From: a virus
Strand: one strand, 5' to 3'
DNA: 24,836 bases
Virus record (IMG/VR): IMGVR_UViG_3300046028_002434
Span: 1 to 24,836 of that record
A model generated the notes under the pieces. It did no database searches, had not been told where the DNA came from, and saw only the letters and a list, made by a program, of their open reading frames with translations. Below are positions 14,941 through 24,616 of this stretch, piece by piece (the first letter of the stretch is position 1; every line of letters begins with the position of its first letter). Both the position numbers and the translations under genes were made by a program.

Positions 14941-15225
14941 ATGATTTTAGACCAAATTGAATTAGTGCATGATGCTGACCCAGAACAAATTAGACCAATT
15001 AGAATTATCGAAGGCGAGTTTGAGGGATTGGTAGTTAGGTTTGGTAAAGCATGGTTTCCGGATACTGGGGATAATAATCTTTCCTTTGAAGTTGACATAA
15101 TTGAGGGTACAATTGAGAAAGAGCAGGAACCTCGTTTACATGAGTTTCTTGGTCAGATCTTAATGGCATTCATCAAAGAAGAAATGCAACGTGAAGAAAG
15201 AAATAATGACAAATCTGAGAATTGA
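14941..15225 (+). CDS. Hypothetical protein, 94 aa
   Basis: SD AAGAAAGG precedes ATG 14941, and the C-terminal 20 nt overlap the helicase gene. The sequence is strongly acidic: a beta-rich first half (RPIRIIEGEFEGLVVRFGKA, then SFEVDIIEG) and a charged helix at the end. Its place between uvsX and gp41, overlapping the latter, suggests a replication or recombination accessory. It does not resemble T4 gp40 or UvsY as far as can be judged by eye. Confidence 0.7.
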   Translation: MILDQIELVHDADPEQIRPIRIIEGEFEGLVVRFGKAWFPDTGDNNLSFEVDIIEGTIEKEQEPRLHEFLGQILMAFIKEEMQREERNNDKSEN

Positions 15226-16630
15226 AGAAACGATCCTATCAAATTTATTGATTGATGAGGAATACTCGCGTAAGGCTACGCCATTCCTCGATGCTGATTA
15301 CTTTGCCGAAAAGGCAGAAAAGACTTTGCTCATGGAGATCAATGGATTCTTCATGAAGTATAACAAGTTGCCTACGAAAGAAATTATTCGTGTTCAACTT
15401 GCACAGAGAACTGATCTGACTGATACCGATCTCAAGAATGCTATTGAGATCGTTGAGAATTTTACTGATGAGAAACCATCCAGCAGAGAGTGGTTGCTTG
15501 AGCAGACTGAGAAGTTCTGTAAGGAAAAGAGTGTATACAATGCAATCCTTCGTTCCATTAAGATCATTGATGGCAAGGATAAAGAACTGAACAAAGAAGG
15601 TATTCCGAAGATTCTTCAGGATGCCTTGGCTATTTCGTTTGATACTGCAGTTGGTCACTCCTACCTCGAAGATGCTACTGCTCGTTATGAGTTCTATACT
15701 CGTAAGGAAGAAAAGATTGCATTCGATCTGGAGATCCTTAATGATATTACCAAGGGTGGTCTGGCAAAGAAAACCCTGACTCTGTTGGCTGCGCAATCTG
15801 GTGGTGGTAAGAGTCTCGTTATGAGTCACTTCGCTGCTGCTGCTCTGCGCCAGGGTAAGAATGTTCTTTACATTACTCTGGAAATGTCTGAGGAAAGAAT
15901 CGCTGAGCGTATTGATGCAAACCTACTTGGTATTGACATTGATAAAATTGCTGATCTTTCCAAGGAAGAATTCGTCCAGAAGATCTCAACTATCAGTAAA
16001 AAGACTCAGGGTAAGTTGATCGTCAAGGAATACCCAACTGGTTCTGCCCATTCAGGTCACTTCCGTGGTCTGCTTGAAGAGTTGAAGATCAAGAAAGACT
16101 TTAAGCCTGACTTCCTGATTGTGGATTATCTTGGTATCTGTGCTTCCTCGCGTATGAAGATGGGTGGTAGTGTCAATAGTTATTCTTACATCAAAAGCAT
16201 TGCTGAAGAACTTCGTAGTCTGGCAGTTGAATATGATGTTCCATTGATCAGTGCTACTCAGGTCAATCGTAATGGCTTTGATAACTCGGATATTGAACTT
16301 ACAGATACTTCTGAGTCAATGGGTCTGGTCCATACTGCTGATCTGATGCTTGCTTTGATTCGAACTGAAGAACTCGATGAGATAAATCAAATCCTGATCA
16401 AGCAGTTGAAGAATCGTTATGCTGATACTGCTATCAATAAGCGATTCGTCGTTGGTATCAATCGTTCCAGGATGAAGTTGTTTGATCTTGAGAAGTCTGC
16501 CCAGACTTCTATTGCTTCTGGTTCATCCTTTAGTCCGAAGGGTAAGATGAAGAAAGTTGAGGAGCCAGATGTTCCTCTGTATGATCGTTCGAAGCCAAGA
16601 CCCACGGACTTCGGTGGATTCAAATTCTAA
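15206..16630 (+). CDS. 41: Replicative DNA helicase, T4 gp41-like (DnaB family), 474 aa
   Basis: Hexameric 5'-3' helicase that unwinds the fork and carries the primase. The N-terminal helical domain (EETILSNLLIDEEYSRKATP) matches T4 gp41 VEIILSHLIFDQAYFSKVWP. The RecA core has Walker A AAQSGGGKS (about 196-204), NVLYITLEMSEERIAERIDA (T4 NVLYISMEMAEEVCAKRIDA), PDFLIVDYLGICASSRMKM, ISATQVNRNGFDNSDIELTD and the motif-4-like QLKNRYAD. T4 gp41 has 475 aa. Start ATG 15206 has AAGAAAG 6 nt upstream; GTG 15191 in the same frame lacks one. It overlaps the previous gene by 20 nt. Confidence 0.95.
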   Translation: MTNLRIEETILSNLLIDEEYSRKATPFLDADYFAEKAEKTLLMEINGFFMKYNKLPTKEIIRVQLAQRTDLTDTDLKNAIEIVENFTDEKPSSREWLLEQTEKFCKEKSVYNAILRSIKIIDGKDKELNKEGIPKILQDALAISFDTAVGHSYLEDATARYEFYTRKEEKIAFDLEILNDITKGGLAKKTLTLLAAQSGGGKSLVMSHFAAAALRQGKNVLYITLEMSEERIAERIDANLLGIDIDKIADLSKEEFVQKISTISKKTQGKLIVKEYPTGSAHSGHFRGLLEELKIKKDFKPDFLIVDYLGICASSRMKMGGSVNSYSYIKSIAEELRSLAVEYDVPLISATQVNRNGFDNSDIELTDTSESMGLVHTADLMLALIRTEELDEINQILIKQLKNRYADTAINKRFVVGINRSRMKLFDLEKSAQTSIASGSSFSPKGKMKKVEEPDVPLYDRSKPRPTDFGGFKF

Positions 16631-16677
16631 ATATATTTTCAATTTCCTGAAAAAACTCGTGCAATTATACTAAATAG
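16629..16677 (+). repeat. Imperfect repeat copy 1, ending in CTAAATA; candidate late promoter
   Basis: AAATATATTTTCAA, then GAAAAAACTC and CTAAATA (16670-16676), recurs in the same order and spacing at 19727-19777. T4 late promoters are a lone TATAAATA -10 recognised by gp55 and the clamp; CTAAATA may be the equivalent here. A TATACT at 16666-16671 could instead be an ordinary -10. Confidence 0.45.
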
Positions 16678-16773
16678 ATGATGACCAAGAATTTACTAAA
16701 ACCAACGTATAGAAGCGAATTTCTCGCCAGTGATTCAACACGCGAGAATATTGTGAAGGTTAGTTCTACGTAG
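16678..16773 (+). CDS. Possible 31-aa leader ORF
   Basis: ATGATG at 16678 opens a 31-codon frame (MMTKNLLKPTYRSEFLASDS and 11 more) ending at TAG 16771-16773. There is no SD. The frame contains the hairpin TTCTCGC/GCGAGAA (16721-16748), and its stop codon sits inside the GTAGGGT that could compete with the downstream terminator. A leader peptide of an attenuator is possible; chance is not excluded. Confidence 0.25.
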   Translation: MMTKNLLKPTYRSEFLASDSTRENIVKVSST

Positions 16774-16795
16774 GGTGGTTCTGACTCAAAGAAAC

Positions 16796-16817
16796 AAACC
16801 CTACTTCGGTAGGGTTT
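16796..16817 (+). terminator. Rho-independent terminator with TTCG loop, after gp41
   Basis: AAACCCTAC (16796-16804), TTCG, GTAGGGTTT (16809-16817), then TGTCATTTT. A second GTAGGGT at 16770-16776 can pair with ACCCTAC (16798-16804) and would disrupt this hairpin. It insulates the replication genes from the stable-RNA operon. Confidence 0.8.
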
Positions 16818-16831
16818 TGTCATTTTAGGGA

Positions 16832-16860
16832 TTTACTTTTATTCGGGTGTGTGGTATAAT
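16832..16860 (+). promoter_or_regulatory. Stable-RNA operon promoter 1
   Basis: -35 TTTACT (16832-16837), 17 bp, -10 TATAAT (16855-16860), with the full TTTACTTTTATTC block. It lies 82 bp upstream of a second promoter of the same design. Confidence 0.8.
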
Positions 16861-16913
16861 TTATGTATAGGTTGAGTGAGATGAGCGGTTCTGGTTAGTT
16901 TAGTTTGAATCGC

Positions 16914-16942
16914 TTTACTTTTATTCGATTTAGTGGTATAAT
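16914..16942 (+). promoter_or_regulatory. Stable-RNA operon promoter 2
   Basis: -35 TTTACT (16914-16919), 17 bp, -10 TATAAT (16937-16942), with the TTTACTTTTATTC block. The expected start near 16949 places the boxA about 24 nt into the transcript. Confidence 0.8.
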
Positions 16943-16972
16943 TCTTTATCGGTTGGTTGTTGAACTTGCCGC

Positions 16973-16985
16973 TGCTCTTTAATAA
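16973..16985 (+). promoter_or_regulatory. boxA-like antitermination site
   Basis: TGCTCTTTAATAA differs by one base from the E. coli rRNA leader boxA TGCTCTTTAACAA, and the following TTTGTCTG also resembles the rrn leader. boxA RNA binds NusB/NusE (S10) and prevents Rho-dependent termination of untranslated RNA. Its place just after promoter 2 and before a long non-coding operon fits this role. Confidence 0.7.
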
Positions 16986-17000
16986 TTTGTCTGTAATCTA

Positions 17001-17030
17001 TATGGATCCAGGGTTCGCTCTGGTGCCATA
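17001..17030 (+). other. Leader hairpin before the first compact RNA
   Basis: TATGG (17001-17005) and CCATA (17026-17030) with inner CCAG (17008-17011)/CTGG (17020-17023) form a hairpin. Its 3' arm is also the 5' end of the long stem of the next RNA, so the two folds exclude each other. Confidence 0.45.
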
Positions 17031-17169
17031 TTGAAATGCATTCGTTGATCGGTGAGCCAGGACATCGGCAGATCCGCAAATGTCAAATGCGTTGTACGCA
17101 TTCCGGACTGCACCATAGAGTGCAGTTATCGGGTAAGACGGTTAAATTCCGTAGTGCATTTCAATATGG
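17026..17169 (+). ncRNA. Compact RNA element E1, closed by a 15-bp stem (144 nt)
   Basis: CCATATTGAAATGCA (17026-17040) pairs perfectly with its complement at 17155-17169. Inside are AATGCG/CGCATT (17086-17102), ACTGCAC/GTGCAGT (17107-17126) and ACGG-TTAAATT-CCGT (17138-17152, a 7-nt loop recalling a T-arm), and a weaker GATC/GATC plus GCC/GGC arm near 17047-17074. This is a multi-branched fold. No SD-led reading frame fits it. T4 also encodes two stable RNAs of unknown role (C and D) within its tRNA cluster; no sequence identity to them is claimed. Confidence 0.65.
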
Positions 17170-17226
17170 TGAAGGTCCCGAGTTGAGAGAGCCCTGGACG
17201 ATCCGCGGATGGGCAGCGGCACCATA
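17165..17226 (+). other. Structured spacer between E1 and E2
   Basis: TATGGTG (17165-17171) can pair with CACCATA (17220-17226), enclosing an inner hairpin built from ATCC-GC-GGAT with GCCC/GGGC. The outer pairs use bases of the E1 closing stem, so this is an alternative fold to E1. Confidence 0.4.
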
Positions 17227-17314
17227 CCATATTGAAATGCATTAGAAAACATAGATGCCTGTGGGTGAGAATCCTAGGCTGGGGTGGGATATCCTGTAGT
17301 GCATTTCAATATGG
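17227..17314 (+). ncRNA. Compact RNA element E2, same closing stem as E1 (88 nt)
   Basis: The identical 15-nt arm CCATATTGAAATGCA (17227-17241) pairs with its complement at 17300-17314. The 58-nt interior is unlike E1 apart from the bases next to the stem and is G-rich, with a GCCT/AGGC hairpin. The 3' arms of E1 and E2 with their flanks are a perfect direct repeat (17151-17171 and 17296-17316). Confidence 0.65.
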
Positions 17315-17318
17315 TGAG

Positions 17319-17400
17319 ATCATAGTGAAGCATAGCACTTCACTGATAAGGAAGTCTGGTCGGCTGTATTCAACTGGCTAGTGCTATGCTTCACTATGAT
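17319..17400 (+). ncRNA. Compact RNA element E3, closed by a perfect 21-bp stem (82 nt)
   Basis: The arm 17319-17339 (starting ATCATAGTGAAG) is perfectly complementary to 17380-17400, around a 40-nt loop containing GATAAGGAAGTC. E3 lies 4 nt after E2 and 4 nt before tRNA-Glu. A 21-bp uninterrupted duplex is a good RNase III substrate. Confidence 0.65.
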
Positions 17401-17404
17401 ATTT

Positions 17405-17479
17405 GCTCGGTTCGTCTATCGGTTAGGACGCTAGGTTTTCATCCTGGTAAGAGGAGTTCGATTCTCCTACCGAGTACCA
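17405..17479 (+). tRNA. tRNA-Glu (TTC)
   Basis: Acceptor GCTCGGT/ACCGAGT (G1-T72 wobble), anticodon loop TTTTCAT with anticodon TTC, T-arm GGAG-TTCGATT-CTCC, encoded CCA. Its 3' end TACCA (17475-17479) is also the first part of the closing stem of the next RNA element. Confidence 0.9.
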
Positions 17480-17563
17480 TAATAAGTGTGTGATAAGACG
17501 GTGCGTGATTGCCAGTATCGTAACTTCGAGAGCTCGTCGGTCGAGGGCACACTTATTATGGTA
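17475..17563 (+). ncRNA. Compact RNA element E4, closed by a perfect 16-bp stem (89 nt)
   Basis: TACCATAATAAGTGTG (17475-17490) pairs perfectly with 17548-17563. The interior has CTTCGA/TCGAGG-type and CGAG/CTCG pairs and a TAAGACGGT also found in E1 (17134-17142). It fills the gap between tRNA-Glu and tRNA-Lys, sharing 5 nt with the former and ending 4 nt before the latter. Confidence 0.6.
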
Positions 17564-17567
17564 GAAT

Positions 17568-17643
17568 GGGTTGTTAGCTCAGTTGGTAGAGCAGCGGACT
17601 TTTAATCCGTAGGTCGTGGGTTCGAGTCCCGCACGACCCACCA
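17568..17643 (+). tRNA. tRNA-Lys (TTT)
   Basis: Acceptor GGGTTGT/ACGACCC, anticodon loop CTTTTAA (TTT), T-arm GTGGG-TTCGAGT-CCCGC, discriminator A and encoded CCA. Normal cloverleaf; reads AAA/AAG. Confidence 0.95.
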
Positions 17644-17652
17644 AAGAATAAT

Positions 17653-17729
17653 GCGGGAGTGGCGAAATTGGTATACGCAGCGGTCTTAGAAGCCGTAAGC
17701 TGAGAGTTCGAGTCTCTCCTTCCGCACCA
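17653..17729 (+). tRNA. tRNA-Leu (TAG) with a short variable loop
   Basis: Acceptor GCGGGAG/CTTCCGC, anticodon loop CTTAGAA (TAG), T-arm GAGAG-TTCGAGT-CTCTC, A73, CCA. The variable region is only 5 nt (AAGCT), while bacterial tRNA-Leu normally has a long class II arm. Reads CTA. Confidence 0.88.
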
Positions 17730-17735
17730 AGTTAT

Positions 17736-17822
17736 GGGTATCGAGCAGCATTGGTGACTGCAGCAGACTGTAAATCTGTAGCCCTTCGGGGCAACGGGGT
17801 TCGATTCCCTGGATACCCACCA
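17736..17822 (+). tRNA. tRNA-Tyr (GTA)
   Basis: Acceptor GGGTATC/GATACCC, anticodon loop CTGTAAA (GTA), long variable arm with GCCC-TTCG-GGGC, encoded CCA. Class II as expected for bacterial tRNA-Tyr; the D-arm (GCA/TGC) is short. Confidence 0.93.
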
Positions 17823-17830
17823 AGATCAAT

Positions 17831-17906
17831 TCCTCAATAGCTCAGTCGGTAGAGCAAGGCACTGTTAATGCCTGGGTCGGAGGTTCAAGTCCTTCTTGGG
17901 GAGCCA
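17831..17906 (+). tRNA. tRNA-Asn (GTT)
   Basis: Acceptor TCCTCAA/TTGGGGA, anticodon loop CTGTTAA (GTT), T-loop TTCAAGT, discriminator G and CCA. Normal cloverleaf. Confidence 0.95.
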
Positions 17907-17913
17907 CAATAAT

Positions 17914-17990
17914 GCGGGTGTAGCCGAATTGGTATAGGCAATGGACTTAAAATTCATAATCTGAGGGTTCGAGTCCCTCCACCCGCACCA
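17914..17990 (+). tRNA. tRNA-Leu (TAA) with a short variable loop
   Basis: Acceptor GCGGGTG/CACCCGC, anticodon loop CTTAAAA (TAA), T-arm GAGGG-TTCGAGT-CCCTC, A73, CCA. As in the other tRNA-Leu here, the variable loop is 5 nt (AATCT). Reads TTA. Confidence 0.88.
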
Positions 17991-17994
17991 AGTT

Positions 17995-18074
17995 TTAGGT
18001 GATGACCCAAGCGTAAAGTTCCGGAACTGAGAAGCTAAGAAGCGTAAGTGTACAGCTGGTTTCGTACCACCTAA
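17995..18074 (+). ncRNA. Structured RNA element E5 (80 nt) between tRNAs
   Basis: TTAGGTG (17995-18001) pairs with CACCTAA (18068-18074); inside are GTTCCGGAAC and GTAC/GTAC pairings. Spacers of 4 nt to tRNA-Leu and 3 nt to tRNA-Arg match the pattern of E2-E4. It has tRNA length but no anticodon arm, T-loop or CCA that I can find. Confidence 0.45.
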
Positions 18075-18077
18075 TTT

Positions 18078-18154
18078 GCGACCGTAGCTCAGATGGATAG
18101 AGCAGCGGATTTCTACTCCGTAGGTCAGCGGTTCGAATCCGTTCGGTCGCACCA
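18078..18154 (+). tRNA. tRNA-Arg (TCT)
   Basis: Acceptor GCGACCG/CGGTCGC, anticodon loop TTTCTAC (TCT), T-loop TTCGAAT, A73 and CCA. Reads AGA, a rare codon in many GC-richer proteobacteria. Confidence 0.95.
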
Positions 18155-18164
18155 GATTTTTAAG

Positions 18165-18268
18165 ACACGGATACGTAGCACCTCCCTTTCACGGAGATGT
18201 ATGCTCGTGGCAATTCTATGTAATTCCGTGACTGACAGGAAAGAACCCATATACTGTCAACTTATTTT
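18165..18268 (+). other. Structured spacer (E6) between tRNA-Arg and tRNA-Asp
   Basis: CACGGA (18166-18171) and TCCGTG (18225-18230) can close a domain containing CTCC-CTTTCAC-GGAG, a 7-nt loop that recalls an anticodon arm. GACAG/CTGTC follows before the next tRNA. There is no CCA and no T-arm, so it may be a degenerate tRNA or another small RNA. No convincing coding frame. Confidence 0.3.
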
Positions 18269-18343
18269 GGATCTAAAGTGTTCATGGACGCACACCTCTC
18301 TGTCTAAGAGGAAGAAGGAGATCGTTACTCCTTAGATCCGCCA
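18269..18343 (+). tRNA. tRNA-Asp (GTC) with atypical T-loop
   Basis: Acceptor GGATCTA/TAGATCC, D-arm GTGT/GCAC with GG in the loop, anticodon arm CCTCT-CTGTCTA-AGAGG (GTC), T-arm AGGAG-ATCGTTA-CTCCT, discriminator G (the Asp identity base) and CCA. The T-loop lacks the usual TTC start: T54/A58 are replaced by A54/T58. Confidence 0.8.
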
Positions 18344-18357
18344 GAAAGACGTTAAAT

Positions 18358-18431
18358 ACCAATGTAGTTCAAAGGTAGAACAATCGGCTGATAACCGATA
18401 AACAAAGGATCGTTACCTTTCATTGGTACCA
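18358..18431 (+). tRNA. tRNA-Ile (GAT) with atypical T-loop
   Basis: Acceptor ACCAATG/CATTGGT, D-stem GTTC/GAAC, anticodon arm ATCGG-CTGATAA-CCGAT (GAT), T-arm AAAGG-ATCGTTA-CCTTT, A73, CCA. The T-loop ATCGTTA is the same unusual one as in the preceding tRNA-Asp. Confidence 0.85.
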
Positions 18432-18446
18432 TTAACGGAGAACAAG

Positions 18447-18683
18447 ATGGCAAGAGGATACGTTATTCAGGTCCTAGTAGCAGTAGATCAACTAGCCAAT
18501 TCTTTATTGGGTGGCTGGGCTGATGAGACTCTGTCTAGTCGTTCATATAGATTACATGACAAGAAAGTATGGTTCATTGCTGAGAAGGTGATCAATGCTC
18601 TGTTCTTCTTACAGAAAGATCATTGTCGTATGGCATATGAAGCAGAATTAAATAGGAAGCAGACATTTAGTCTGCCTAAGTAA
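18447..18683 (+). CDS. Conserved small phage protein (LGGWADETLSSR motif), 78 aa
   Basis: ATG 18447 has GGAG (18437-18440) 6 nt upstream; an in-frame TTG at 18423 lies inside tRNA-Ile and is rejected. The pattern LVAVDQLANSLLGGWADETL then SSRSYRL, FIAEKVINALFF and DHCRMAYEAELNRKQ is familiar from many phages and prophages, where it is annotated as hypothetical. The first 25 residues are hydrophobic but broken by charges, so membrane contact is uncertain. It stands inside the tRNA array and follows the tRNA-Ile CCA by 15 nt. Function unknown. Confidence 0.8.
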   Translation: MARGYVIQVLVAVDQLANSLLGGWADETLSSRSYRLHDKKVWFIAEKVINALFFLQKDHCRMAYEAELNRKQTFSLPK

Positions 18684-18688
18684 ACAAT

Positions 18689-18762
18689 GGGCTTGTAGTA
18701 TAATGGGATTACGGCAGCTTTGCAAGCTGTTTATGGGAGTTCGATTCTCCCCAGGTCCACCA
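18689..18762 (+). tRNA. tRNA-Ala (TGC)
   Basis: Acceptor GGGCTTG/CAGGTCC (two wobbles), anticodon arm GCAGC-TTTGCAA-GCTGT (TGC), T-arm GGGAG-TTCGATT-CTCCC, A73, CCA. Starts 5 nt after the preceding stop codon. Confidence 0.92.
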
Positions 18763-18778
18763 AAATTAAAGGATGTAT

Positions 18779-18952
18779 ATGCAAAAGAAATGGTATTTTT
18801 CAAAGACAGTCTGGATCAATATTTTTGCCATGGCTTCGATTTATTTGCAGATGGAGTTCGGATTTCTGTTTAGCCCAGAACTCCAGACAGCTGCTTTGTC
18901 TTTGATCAATCTCTGGTTGCGTAAAGCGACGAAGGAAGAAATCGTCTGGTAA
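18779..18952 (+). CDS. Small holin-like membrane protein, 57 aa
   Basis: ATG 18779 follows AAAGGAT; TAA is at 18950-18952, 7 nt before tRNA-Thr. The sequence starts MQKKWYFSKTVWINIFAMAS, with one hydrophobic helix (about 11-32), and ends with an amphipathic helix PELQTAALSLINLWLRKATK. The WYxSKTxWxN start with a PE..A...INL.LR end is a common phage membrane-protein pattern, sometimes annotated as holin or holin-like. A role in lysis is therefore possible but not shown. It is another coding island in the tRNA array. Confidence 0.75.
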   Translation: MQKKWYFSKTVWINIFAMASIYLQMEFGFLFSPELQTAALSLINLWLRKATKEEIVW

Positions 18953-18959
18953 AGTATTC

Positions 18960-19033
18960 GCCCCTATAGTTAAGTGGTATAACGATTGCCTTGTAAGCAT
19001 TAATTCCAAGTTCGATTCCTGGTGGGGGCACCA
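18960..19033 (+). tRNA. tRNA-Thr (TGT)
   Basis: Acceptor GCCCCTA/TGGGGGC, anticodon loop CTTGTAA (TGT), T-loop TTCGATT, A73, CCA. The anticodon and T stems each carry one mismatch, so it is slightly degenerate. Reads ACA. Confidence 0.87.
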
Positions 19034-19040
19034 AAACGTA

Positions 19041-19118
<78 letters not shown>

Positions 19119-19132
19119 TTAAATATAATTTT

Positions 19133-19209
19133 CGGAGTGTAGCACAGCCTGGTAGTGCGCTTGCTTTGGGAGCAAGAGGTCCAAGGTTCGAATCCTTGTA
19201 CTCCGACCA
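19133..19209 (+). tRNA. tRNA-Pro (TGG)
   Basis: Acceptor CGGAGTG/TACTCCG, anticodon arm CTTGC-TTTGGGA-GCAAG (TGG), T-arm CAAGG-TTCGAAT-CCTTG, A73, CCA. Normal; reads CCA. Confidence 0.95.
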
Positions 19210-19226
19210 ATAACTAAGAGGTGAAT

Positions 19227-19397
19227 ATGGGTGATGGTGGTAAAGGGTCTGCGCCAAGACCATTTAGTGTTAGTAACGTAGACTATGCTGCTCGTTGGGA
19301 TATGATCTTCGGTAAAGACCAAAAAGAGAATAAACCAAAACAGGAATCCATCACCGAATCAGAAAAGGAAAAGGAAAAGAAACCTGTTTCTCCTTAG
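19227..19397 (+). CDS. Small conserved phage protein (GDGGKGSAPRP...WDMIFGK), 56 aa, overlapping tRNA-Trp
   Basis: ATG 19227 follows AAGAGGTG. The N-terminus MGDGGKGSAPRPFSV and WDMIFGKDQKE match a widespread short phage protein type (MGKG..RRP..y..nWe.IFGK). A charged low-complexity tail EKEKEKKPVSP ends at TAG 19395-19397. The last ten bases of the gene are the 5' end of tRNA-Trp (19388), so the C-terminus is read out of tRNA sequence. Function unknown. Confidence 0.75.
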   Translation: MGDGGKGSAPRPFSVSNVDYAARWDMIFGKDQKENKPKQESITESEKEKEKKPVSP

Positions 19398-19461
19398 TGT
19401 AACGGCAGCATACGGGTCTCCAAAACCCTTGGTCGCGGTTCGAATCCGTGAGGGGAAGCCA
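19388..19461 (+). tRNA. tRNA-Trp (CCA), 5' end inside a coding sequence
   Basis: Acceptor TTCTCCT/AGGGGAA (wobbles), anticodon arm GGGT-CTCCAAA-ACCC (CCA), T-loop TTCGAAT, discriminator G as in bacterial tRNA-Trp, CCA. Overlaps the 56-aa gene by 10 nt. Confidence 0.92.
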
Positions 19462-19470
19462 AAATATAAT

Positions 19471-19545
19471 GCGGGTGTAACTCAGTGGTAGAGTGTCAGC
19501 CTTCCAAGCTGTTCGTCGCAGGTTCGACCCCTGTCACCCGCTCCA
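19471..19545 (+). tRNA. tRNA-Gly (TCC)
   Basis: Acceptor GCGGGTG/CACCCGC, anticodon arm CAGC-CTTCCAA-GCTG (TCC), T-arm CAGG-TTCGACC-CCTG, discriminator T (usual for bacterial tRNA-Gly), CCA. Reads GGA/GGG. Confidence 0.95.
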
Positions 19546-19552
19546 GAATAAT

Positions 19553-19627
19553 GCCTTGTTAGCTCAGTGGTAGAGCGGCTCCTTTACACGGAGCGGGTCG
19601 GCGGTTCGAACCCGTCACAAGGTACCA
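19553..19627 (+). tRNA. tRNA-Val (TAC)
   Basis: Acceptor GCCTTGT/ACAAGGT, anticodon arm GCTCC-TTTACAC-GGAGC (TAC), T-loop TTCGAAC, A73, CCA. Last tRNA of the array. Confidence 0.95.
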
Positions 19628-24528: not shown

Positions 24529-24616
24529 GGAAGATTGGCAGAGTGGCCGATTGCGTCAGTCTTGAAAACTGAAGACCCGAAAGGGTCCGTGAGTTCGAAT
24601 CTCACATCTTCCTCCA
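24529..24616 (+). tRNA. tRNA-Ser (TGA)
   Basis: Acceptor GGAAGAT/ATCTTCC, anticodon arm CAGT-CTTGAAA-ACTG (TGA), long class II variable arm GACCC-GAAA-GGGTC, T-loop TTCGAAT, CCA encoded. Isolated from the main array by about 4.9 kb of genes. Confidence 0.95.

Follow-up and report, generated by a model that had tools for sequence, protein, structure and literature searches.

The window, by which we mean the whole stretch of DNA analysed here, is a 24,836-base virus record. A gene at 15191–16630 matches gp41, the helicase of T4-type phages; its best identity stays below 60% in each of the 2,745 named records that gave a match. It is followed by a leader, four hairpin elements (E1–E4) and a tRNA array, with 16 tRNAs detected up to position 19627 and one more at 24529. 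The features are as follows, clamp denoting the closing helix of an element, cargo its interior, and R2 a covariance model described below.

16796–16817, + strand: terminator-like hairpin 3′ of the gp41-like gene, which parts the array from the upstream genes
16832–16860, + strand: promoter-like site TTTACT-17-TATAAT, copy 1, part of repeat D5
16914–16942, + strand: promoter-like site TTTACT-17-TATAAT, copy 2, from the repeat and promoter scan
16974–16984, + strand: boxA-like GCTCTTTAATA, a perfect match to GYTCTTTAANA
17026–17169, + strand: E1, with clamp 17026–17042/17153–17169 and cargo 17043–17152; cargo replaced in locus L059
17227–17314, + strand: E2, with the same clamp as E1 and a different cargo; R2 E-value 7e-12
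17319–17400, + strand: E3, with a diverged 21-bp clamp; R2 E-value 1.4e-7 at 17320–17399
17405–17479, + strand: tRNA-Glu, whose CCA (17477–17479) forms part of the E4 5′ arm
17475–17563, + strand: E4, a probable diverged member that begins at the tRNA-Glu CCA; R2 E-value only 0.16 at 17477–17561
17568–19627, + strand: remaining tRNA array from tRNA-Lys to tRNA-Val, 15 further tRNAs by tRNA detection

Terminator-like sites number three in 1 kb against 0.8 in shuffles. Promoter-like sites (three, against 2.4 in shuffles) are weak evidence when counted alone, yet the TTTACT-17-TATAAT pair constitutes a 30-nt repeat. The window holds one perfect boxA site, at 16974–16984, and 18 of the 20 positions from 16972 to 16991 agree with the rrnB leader of E. 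coli. The sequence GYTCTTTAANA is given as the boxA consensus in the available passages of a published study (PMC5725501). Across the collected viral loci, some of which overlap, 52 of 109 perfect boxA sites precede a same-strand tRNA by no more than 500 nt, a zone that makes up 9% of the sequence, and 36 of those 52 are found 24–38 nt upstream (reversed control, 1/38). This clustering ahead of tRNAs suggests that transcription of the arrays probably involves Nus antitermination by the host.

The initial annotation described E1–E4 as compact RNAs closed by perfect inverted repeats and separated by 4-nt linkers. The closing repeats were recovered in E1 (15 bp, 17026–17040/17155–17169), E3 (21 bp, 17319–17339/17380–17400) and E4 (16 bp, 17475–17490/17548–17563), while that of E2 is a 15-bp perfect core within 19-nt arms which are 95% complementary. 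These repeats are beyond chance: five inverted-repeat axes of at least 15 bp occur in 3.1 kb, one of them a cross-pairing between E1 and E2, as opposed to none in each of 200 dinucleotide shuffles. The coordinates also bear out the 4-nt gaps between E2 and E3, E3 and tRNA-Glu, and E4 and tRNA-Lys. The picture of separate RNAs with 4-nt linkers nevertheless fails for E4, which shares the CCA end of tRNA-Glu and overlaps this tRNA by 5 nt, its last five nucleotides TACCA being common to both. Because the E4 5′ arm begins inside tRNA-Glu, mature tRNA-Glu and a complete E4 are mutually exclusive.

E1, E2 and E3 are members of a large family in which a conserved clamp (CCATATTGAARYRYATT...AGTGTGYTTCAATATGG) surrounds a variable cargo; E4 probably belongs to it as well, judging from its position and a weak score. 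In six close relatives whose gp41 is 97–98% identical the arms are constant and the interiors change: L057 is without E1 and carries two further hairpins after E4, and in L059 both E1 and E2 enclose different interiors. The clamp pattern CCATATTGAA-N(53-83)-TTCAATATGG matches at least 119 IMG/VR stretches, which together with loci collected earlier yielded 215 hairpins in 132 loci; the contigs are metagenomic and partly redundant, and the hairpin copies are not independent. Among the matches listed, 209 of the 215 hairpins have tRNA genes no more than 1.5 kb away, and none has tRNAs of both strands within that distance. An earlier 16-base scan had returned 53 stretches in which chance matches were mixed with members, and of 625 rows from a relaxed scan of both strands, 53 were more than 700 nt away from any detected tRNA. 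Nearly the same clamp pattern matched 19 stretches in 257 Gb of prokaryote contigs, 17 of them without a detected tRNA and two with tRNAs about 2 kb away. These were rejected as members: they look like chance, and six are an unrelated repeat of Lachnospiraceae, whose hairpins have CCATATTGAA...CGCAATCG 5′ arms (contigs L252, L255, L259, L266, L267 and L270).

The clamp is a constant, strand-specific and covarying helix. The search pattern fixed its outer ten pairs only, which leaves pairs 11–17 as an unselected test, and six of 176 distinct copies were excluded from the strand tests for want of a tRNA. In pairs 11–17, 1169 of 1190 cells are paired (98.2%; shuffled mean 90.6%), and on the tRNA strand 272 G·U combinations face 7 A·C; counted per copy, 148 lean to G·U, one to A·C and 21 tie. 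As a helix kept at the level of DNA should show both alike, this strand-specific excess indicates that it is kept as RNA. In 44 hairpins that include no window sequence, 12 of the 17 clamp pairs have changed on both sides, and the 60 cells concerned exceed all 500 shuffles (0/500) as well as slid controls. The diverged clamps in A1/A2 were selected as paired, and the percentage paired there is so by construction.

Covariance model R2, built from these 44 hairpins and hence from no window sequence, finds E2 (7e-12), E3 (1.4e-7), E4 at only 0.16 and E1 as a partial match at 4.9. The incomplete detection of E1, whose clamp equals that of E2, is due to its long loop; model R1, whose members include E2, E4 and a copy of E3, detects it at 1.6e-8. 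With both models, the tRNA strand of the window scores higher for every element found on both strands. A search of the window against Rfam 15 at the gathering threshold returned tRNAs only, which agrees with the earlier statement that no known RNA family is recognisable here. In 13 further clamp loci the best 150 Rfam matches listed were tRNAs and one GOLLD, with 69 lower-scoring matches beyond those. The initial annotation had seen in E1–E4 a candidate new system, to be judged by covariance in the stems, and this interpretation is borne out in part: compensatory stem changes, selection at the RNA level and the lack of an Rfam match together argue that the new family is real.

In about half of the copies the position of the clamp is fixed relative to CCA and 5′ ends. 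Its first three bases are the CCA of the upstream tRNA (exactly −3) in 82 of 176 listed distinct copies, only one further copy having a tRNA end within 30 nt, and in 26 of the 176 the next tRNA starts at exactly −2, on the final GG of the clamp. Once diverged clamps near tRNAs are included, the CCA is shared by 123 of 242. It is this sharing, and not a 4-nt linker, that constitutes the family-wide rule. No tRNA lies flush upstream or within 15 nt downstream in 72 of the 176 listed distinct copies. In the window, E4 starts at the CCA of the preceding tRNA, and E1–E3 have no detected tRNA directly upstream. A reading of the copies without an upstream tRNA as permuted tRNAs was rejected, a 7-bp flank helix resembling an acceptor stem being found in 4 of 118 against 5.7 in shuffled sequences.

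Cargos are varied, and they are exchanged. Those of the 176 listed distinct hairpins form 125 clusters (blastn, 60% coverage), 93 of which are single; three cargos were without a match in INPHARED. Flanks of 57–213 nt could be aligned elsewhere in 122 comparisons, with the same cargo in 59, another cargo in 52, a diverged one in 1 and no hairpin in 10; these comparisons are not independent, and the 52 repeat some contigs and in part span two cassettes. Different cargos stand behind near-identical flanks in the locus pairs L169/L224 (98/98%), L170/L243 (98/100%) and L183/L227 (97/95%). L059 has matching flanks around cargos other than those of E1 and E2, and wherever E3 and E4 are present in relatives, their cargos are the same as in the window. 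The sites without a hairpin (10/122 flank matches) imply that single cassettes are dispensable. Furthermore, one cargo may occupy several clamps. The E2 cargo turns up again in L161, where the clamp shows compensating changes, and a cargo termed c0, which matches 40 stretches, sits in clamps as different as ACCATATTCAAACACATT, CCATAGTGAAGCACATT and ACCATATATAAACACATT, each with its complement. Over 27 distinct c0 sequences both inner helices are paired in all cells, the search pattern fixing part of these helices and leaving pairs 25–55, 26–54 and 36–43 free; the varying inner pairs are C-G 17/U-A 10, then G-U, G-C and A-U, then G-C, G-U and C-G. This inner covariation within changing clamps indicates that at least one cargo, c0, constitutes an RNA of its own.

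The interiors of E1–E4 had also been described as structured, a claim that stands for c0, another cargo family, and is weak for the window itself. With the clamp held fixed, the cargo z-scores over 500 shuffles are −2.4 for E1, −1.05 for E2, +0.56 for E3 and +0.58 for E4, the last three being not unusually stable. Whole-element fold z-scores are strongly negative (E1 −6.0, E2 −5.5, E3 −8.4, E4 −4.3), largely because of the closing stems. As a class, cargos differ from shuffles by −0.96 kcal/mol on average, and 61% are more stable; structured interiors were rejected as a general property, given that the class is only slightly more stable and E2–E4 fall within shuffles. A shared cargo motif was rejected too, k-mers over 117 representatives being mainly pieces of T-arms and a weak AAAAGAGA. 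The presence of TAAGACGGT in both E1 and E4, noted earlier, was confirmed; TAAGACGG occurs in only 1 of the 117 representatives, a set that does not contain E4, and is therefore no family motif.

Cargos are also shared with tmRNA. Through cargo c2, which matches 39 stretches, phage-encoded permuted tmRNAs were found (RF01850 or RF01849, plus RF04321) in 6 of 6 loci searched, namely L202:666–1021 (−), L351:2694–3059, L347:1984–2337, L327:6081–6448, L322:4379–4735 (−) and L333:2362–2737. The RF04321 cut-off is exceeded in 13 of 24 viral records, or in 11 of 22 clamp-bearing ones once the two chosen for c2 are set aside, including those of the window relatives L058, L059 and L061; T4 and KVP40 gave no RF04321 match, and the Rfam search of the window gave no tmRNA match. 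ARAGORN calls a tmRNA in 11 of 14 such stretches, with tags such as ANDERFALAA. The c2, c11-like and L208-like cargos fill the tmRNA hairpin between the CCA and the 5′ GGG and are found elsewhere in tRNA clamps. Of 13 tmRNA intervening segments collected by regular expression, five come from loci fetched with the c2 pattern; among the remaining eight, three hold a cargo that also occurs in clamps (c2 in L202, c11-like in L357, L208-like in L251). SmpB and RNase III (PF14622) were each found in 0 of 20 phage records, the controls matching in 8 and 10 of 14 genomes, so that the host would supply both. In 398 genomes of one phylum c2 was not found. The segment in L366 (− strand), about 170 nt long, carries an open frame whose ATG stands at the start of the segment (MKYKIVVKTRY...) and which is the end of a 67-aa ORF.

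The T4-type capsid protein gp23 (PF07068) is encoded in 10 of 25 records, among them all 8 of at least 147 kb, and all 8 carry clamps according to model R2. No clamp was found in 14 named phages, ten of them searched with R2 and a positive control, four with R1 under stricter filters and no control.

Judged from sequence, we hold it about an even chance (roughly 0.5) that E1–E4 are RNA junction cassettes typical of T4-type phages, that they are co-transcribed with tRNAs, cut out and swapped, and that their cargos act in trans. A clamp would begin where the RNA before it, in many cases a tRNA, has its 3′ CCA, and would run up to the following RNA, stopping at the 5′ end of that RNA or close by; inside it would lie a single cargo RNA out of a very large exchangeable pool. 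Promoters of its own would drive the array, with an rrn-type boxA ahead of it by virtue of which the polymerase may resist early termination. The clamp would sequester the CCA end until host tRNA-processing nucleases cut, and cuts at the CCA and the next 5′ end would free the tRNAs together with a helix-ended small RNA, predicted to be stable. In permuted tmRNAs, the intervening segment is cut out at the CCA and the 5′ end by tRNA-processing nucleases. By analogy, this maturation appears to be the best available model for clamp removal. As clamps are alike across phages, recombination could be the route by which the observed cargo swaps arise. The weakest step is the retention of cargos for action in trans, where phage–host conflict would be our best guess; some cargos are perhaps tRNA mimics or decoys. 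In a broader and more doubtful form, the family may be the RNA counterpart of an integron: the clamp would let a pool of at least 125 small RNAs swap among T4-type phages, with rrn-type antitermination and with release by host tRNA enzymes alongside tRNAs and a two-piece tmRNA, as a fast-changing arsenal against RNA-targeting host defences.

The strongest rival, possible though tentative, regards the hairpins as spacers in cis that separate neighbouring RNAs or help to process them, the interior being discarded and left to drift, and cargo sharing reflecting recombination and recent descent. A comparable role in processing is ascribed to the intervening segment of permuted tmRNA. The fixed place at CCA and 5′ ends, the mostly unremarkable stability of the interiors relative to shuffles, the cargos common to clamps and tmRNA segments, and the 10 sites without a hairpin all suit this reading. 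It does not explain why c0 keeps its sequence and covaries inside while its clamps change, nor why c0 and c2 each recur in about 40 stretches, and a mere spacer would not need 44–122 nt. The evidence from c0 and c2 leaves room for spacers among most cargos, those of the window included. An improbable alternative takes the elements as tRNA bodies whose acceptor stem was replaced by the clamp, serving as decoys for tRNA-cleaving host nucleases. Here, the T-arm motif GGTTYRANNCC, carried by 22 of 170 cargos (0.4 in a shuffled set), is in favour, 17 of the 22 ending 0–11 nt before the 3′ clamp arm in a roughly tRNA-like placement, as is cargo L178_6802, which aligns over 19–59 to tRNA-Lys; the motif is nonetheless absent from 148 of the 170, E1–E4 included, and no general anticodon arm is seen.

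Mobile elements at the level of DNA, with MITE-like inverted repeats inserting at tRNA 3′ ends, would account for constant ends, a variable interior and presence or absence at one site. This reading was rejected and is very improbable: the strand bias in mismatches (G·U 272, A·C 7) is that of RNA-level pairing and contradicts DNA-level repeats, and clamps undergo compensatory change at a single site of use. Kinship with the stable RNAs C and D of T4 is less credible still. These are likewise non-tRNA RNAs in the tRNA cluster of a T4-type phage, yet they fold without a long clamp, and neither R1 nor R2 matched in NC_000866, for which reason they were rejected as members. RNA C (L136:2409–2547 (−)) ends in a T-arm-like hairpin, CCGGGTTCGAATCCCGG.

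Several known systems resemble parts of the proposed junction cassettes. The segment of permuted tmRNAs (RF04321, RF01849, RF01850) likewise lies between the CCA and the mature 5′ end, its stem (e.g., AAGCATATT/AGTATGCTT) resembles the inner clamp, and three cargo types are in common; unlike that segment, most clamps lie between tRNAs or other array RNAs, several occur per phage, and the conserved helix is longer. The leader of rRNA operons also places a boxA-like sequence ahead of RNAs closed by long helices, whereas here there is no rRNA and clamps of 15–21 bp enclose unrelated cargos. GOLLD is another structured phage RNA of tRNA-rich regions and is present in one clamp locus (RF02032, 207.5 bits, L228:7302–7765, alongside clamp hairpins); in contrast to the clamp hairpins, it exceeds 400 nt and has one conserved fold, and Rfam reports no GOLLD at clamp elements. 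Promoter/stem-loop cassettes (PeSLs) of T4-type phages were reportedly described by Arbiol in 2010 and Comeau in 2014. In the available passages of one source, PeSLs are small shared sequences said to mediate modular shuffling (PMC4503421); as described there they shuffle genes, whereas the clamp family shuffles RNA inside a constant, RNA-covarying helix at tRNA ends. No PeSL-type early promoter per unit was found in 16600–17600 on the + strand, where promoter-like sites lie only upstream of E1.

The clamp–cargo layout was not found in searches of open-licence PMC papers. A study of S-CREM1 whose title names “non-coding RNA genes” describes tRNAs and Rfam matches in its available sections (PMC9964418). 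Should the junction-cassette reading hold, T4-type phages would own a modular small-RNA system that goes unannotated, as tRNA finders pass over it, sequence searches lose a constant helix around a changing cargo, and Rfam gave no report of it at the loci searched here. In that case the role of non-tRNA RNAs in phage tRNA clusters would be directly testable through natural cargos and allelic swaps, and phage tRNA arrays would be tied to permuted tmRNA maturation and rrn-type antitermination.

Two further stretches of the array lie outside the elements described above. Between tRNA-Leu and tRNA-Arg, window positions 17991–18077 have TTAGGTG/CACCTAA ends and a fold not above shuffles; the stretch is identical in L057 and absent from L059 and L009. 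After tRNA-Arg, positions 18155–18268 are nearly identical in L057 and L059, have a fold z-score of −2.3, and are perhaps another array RNA.
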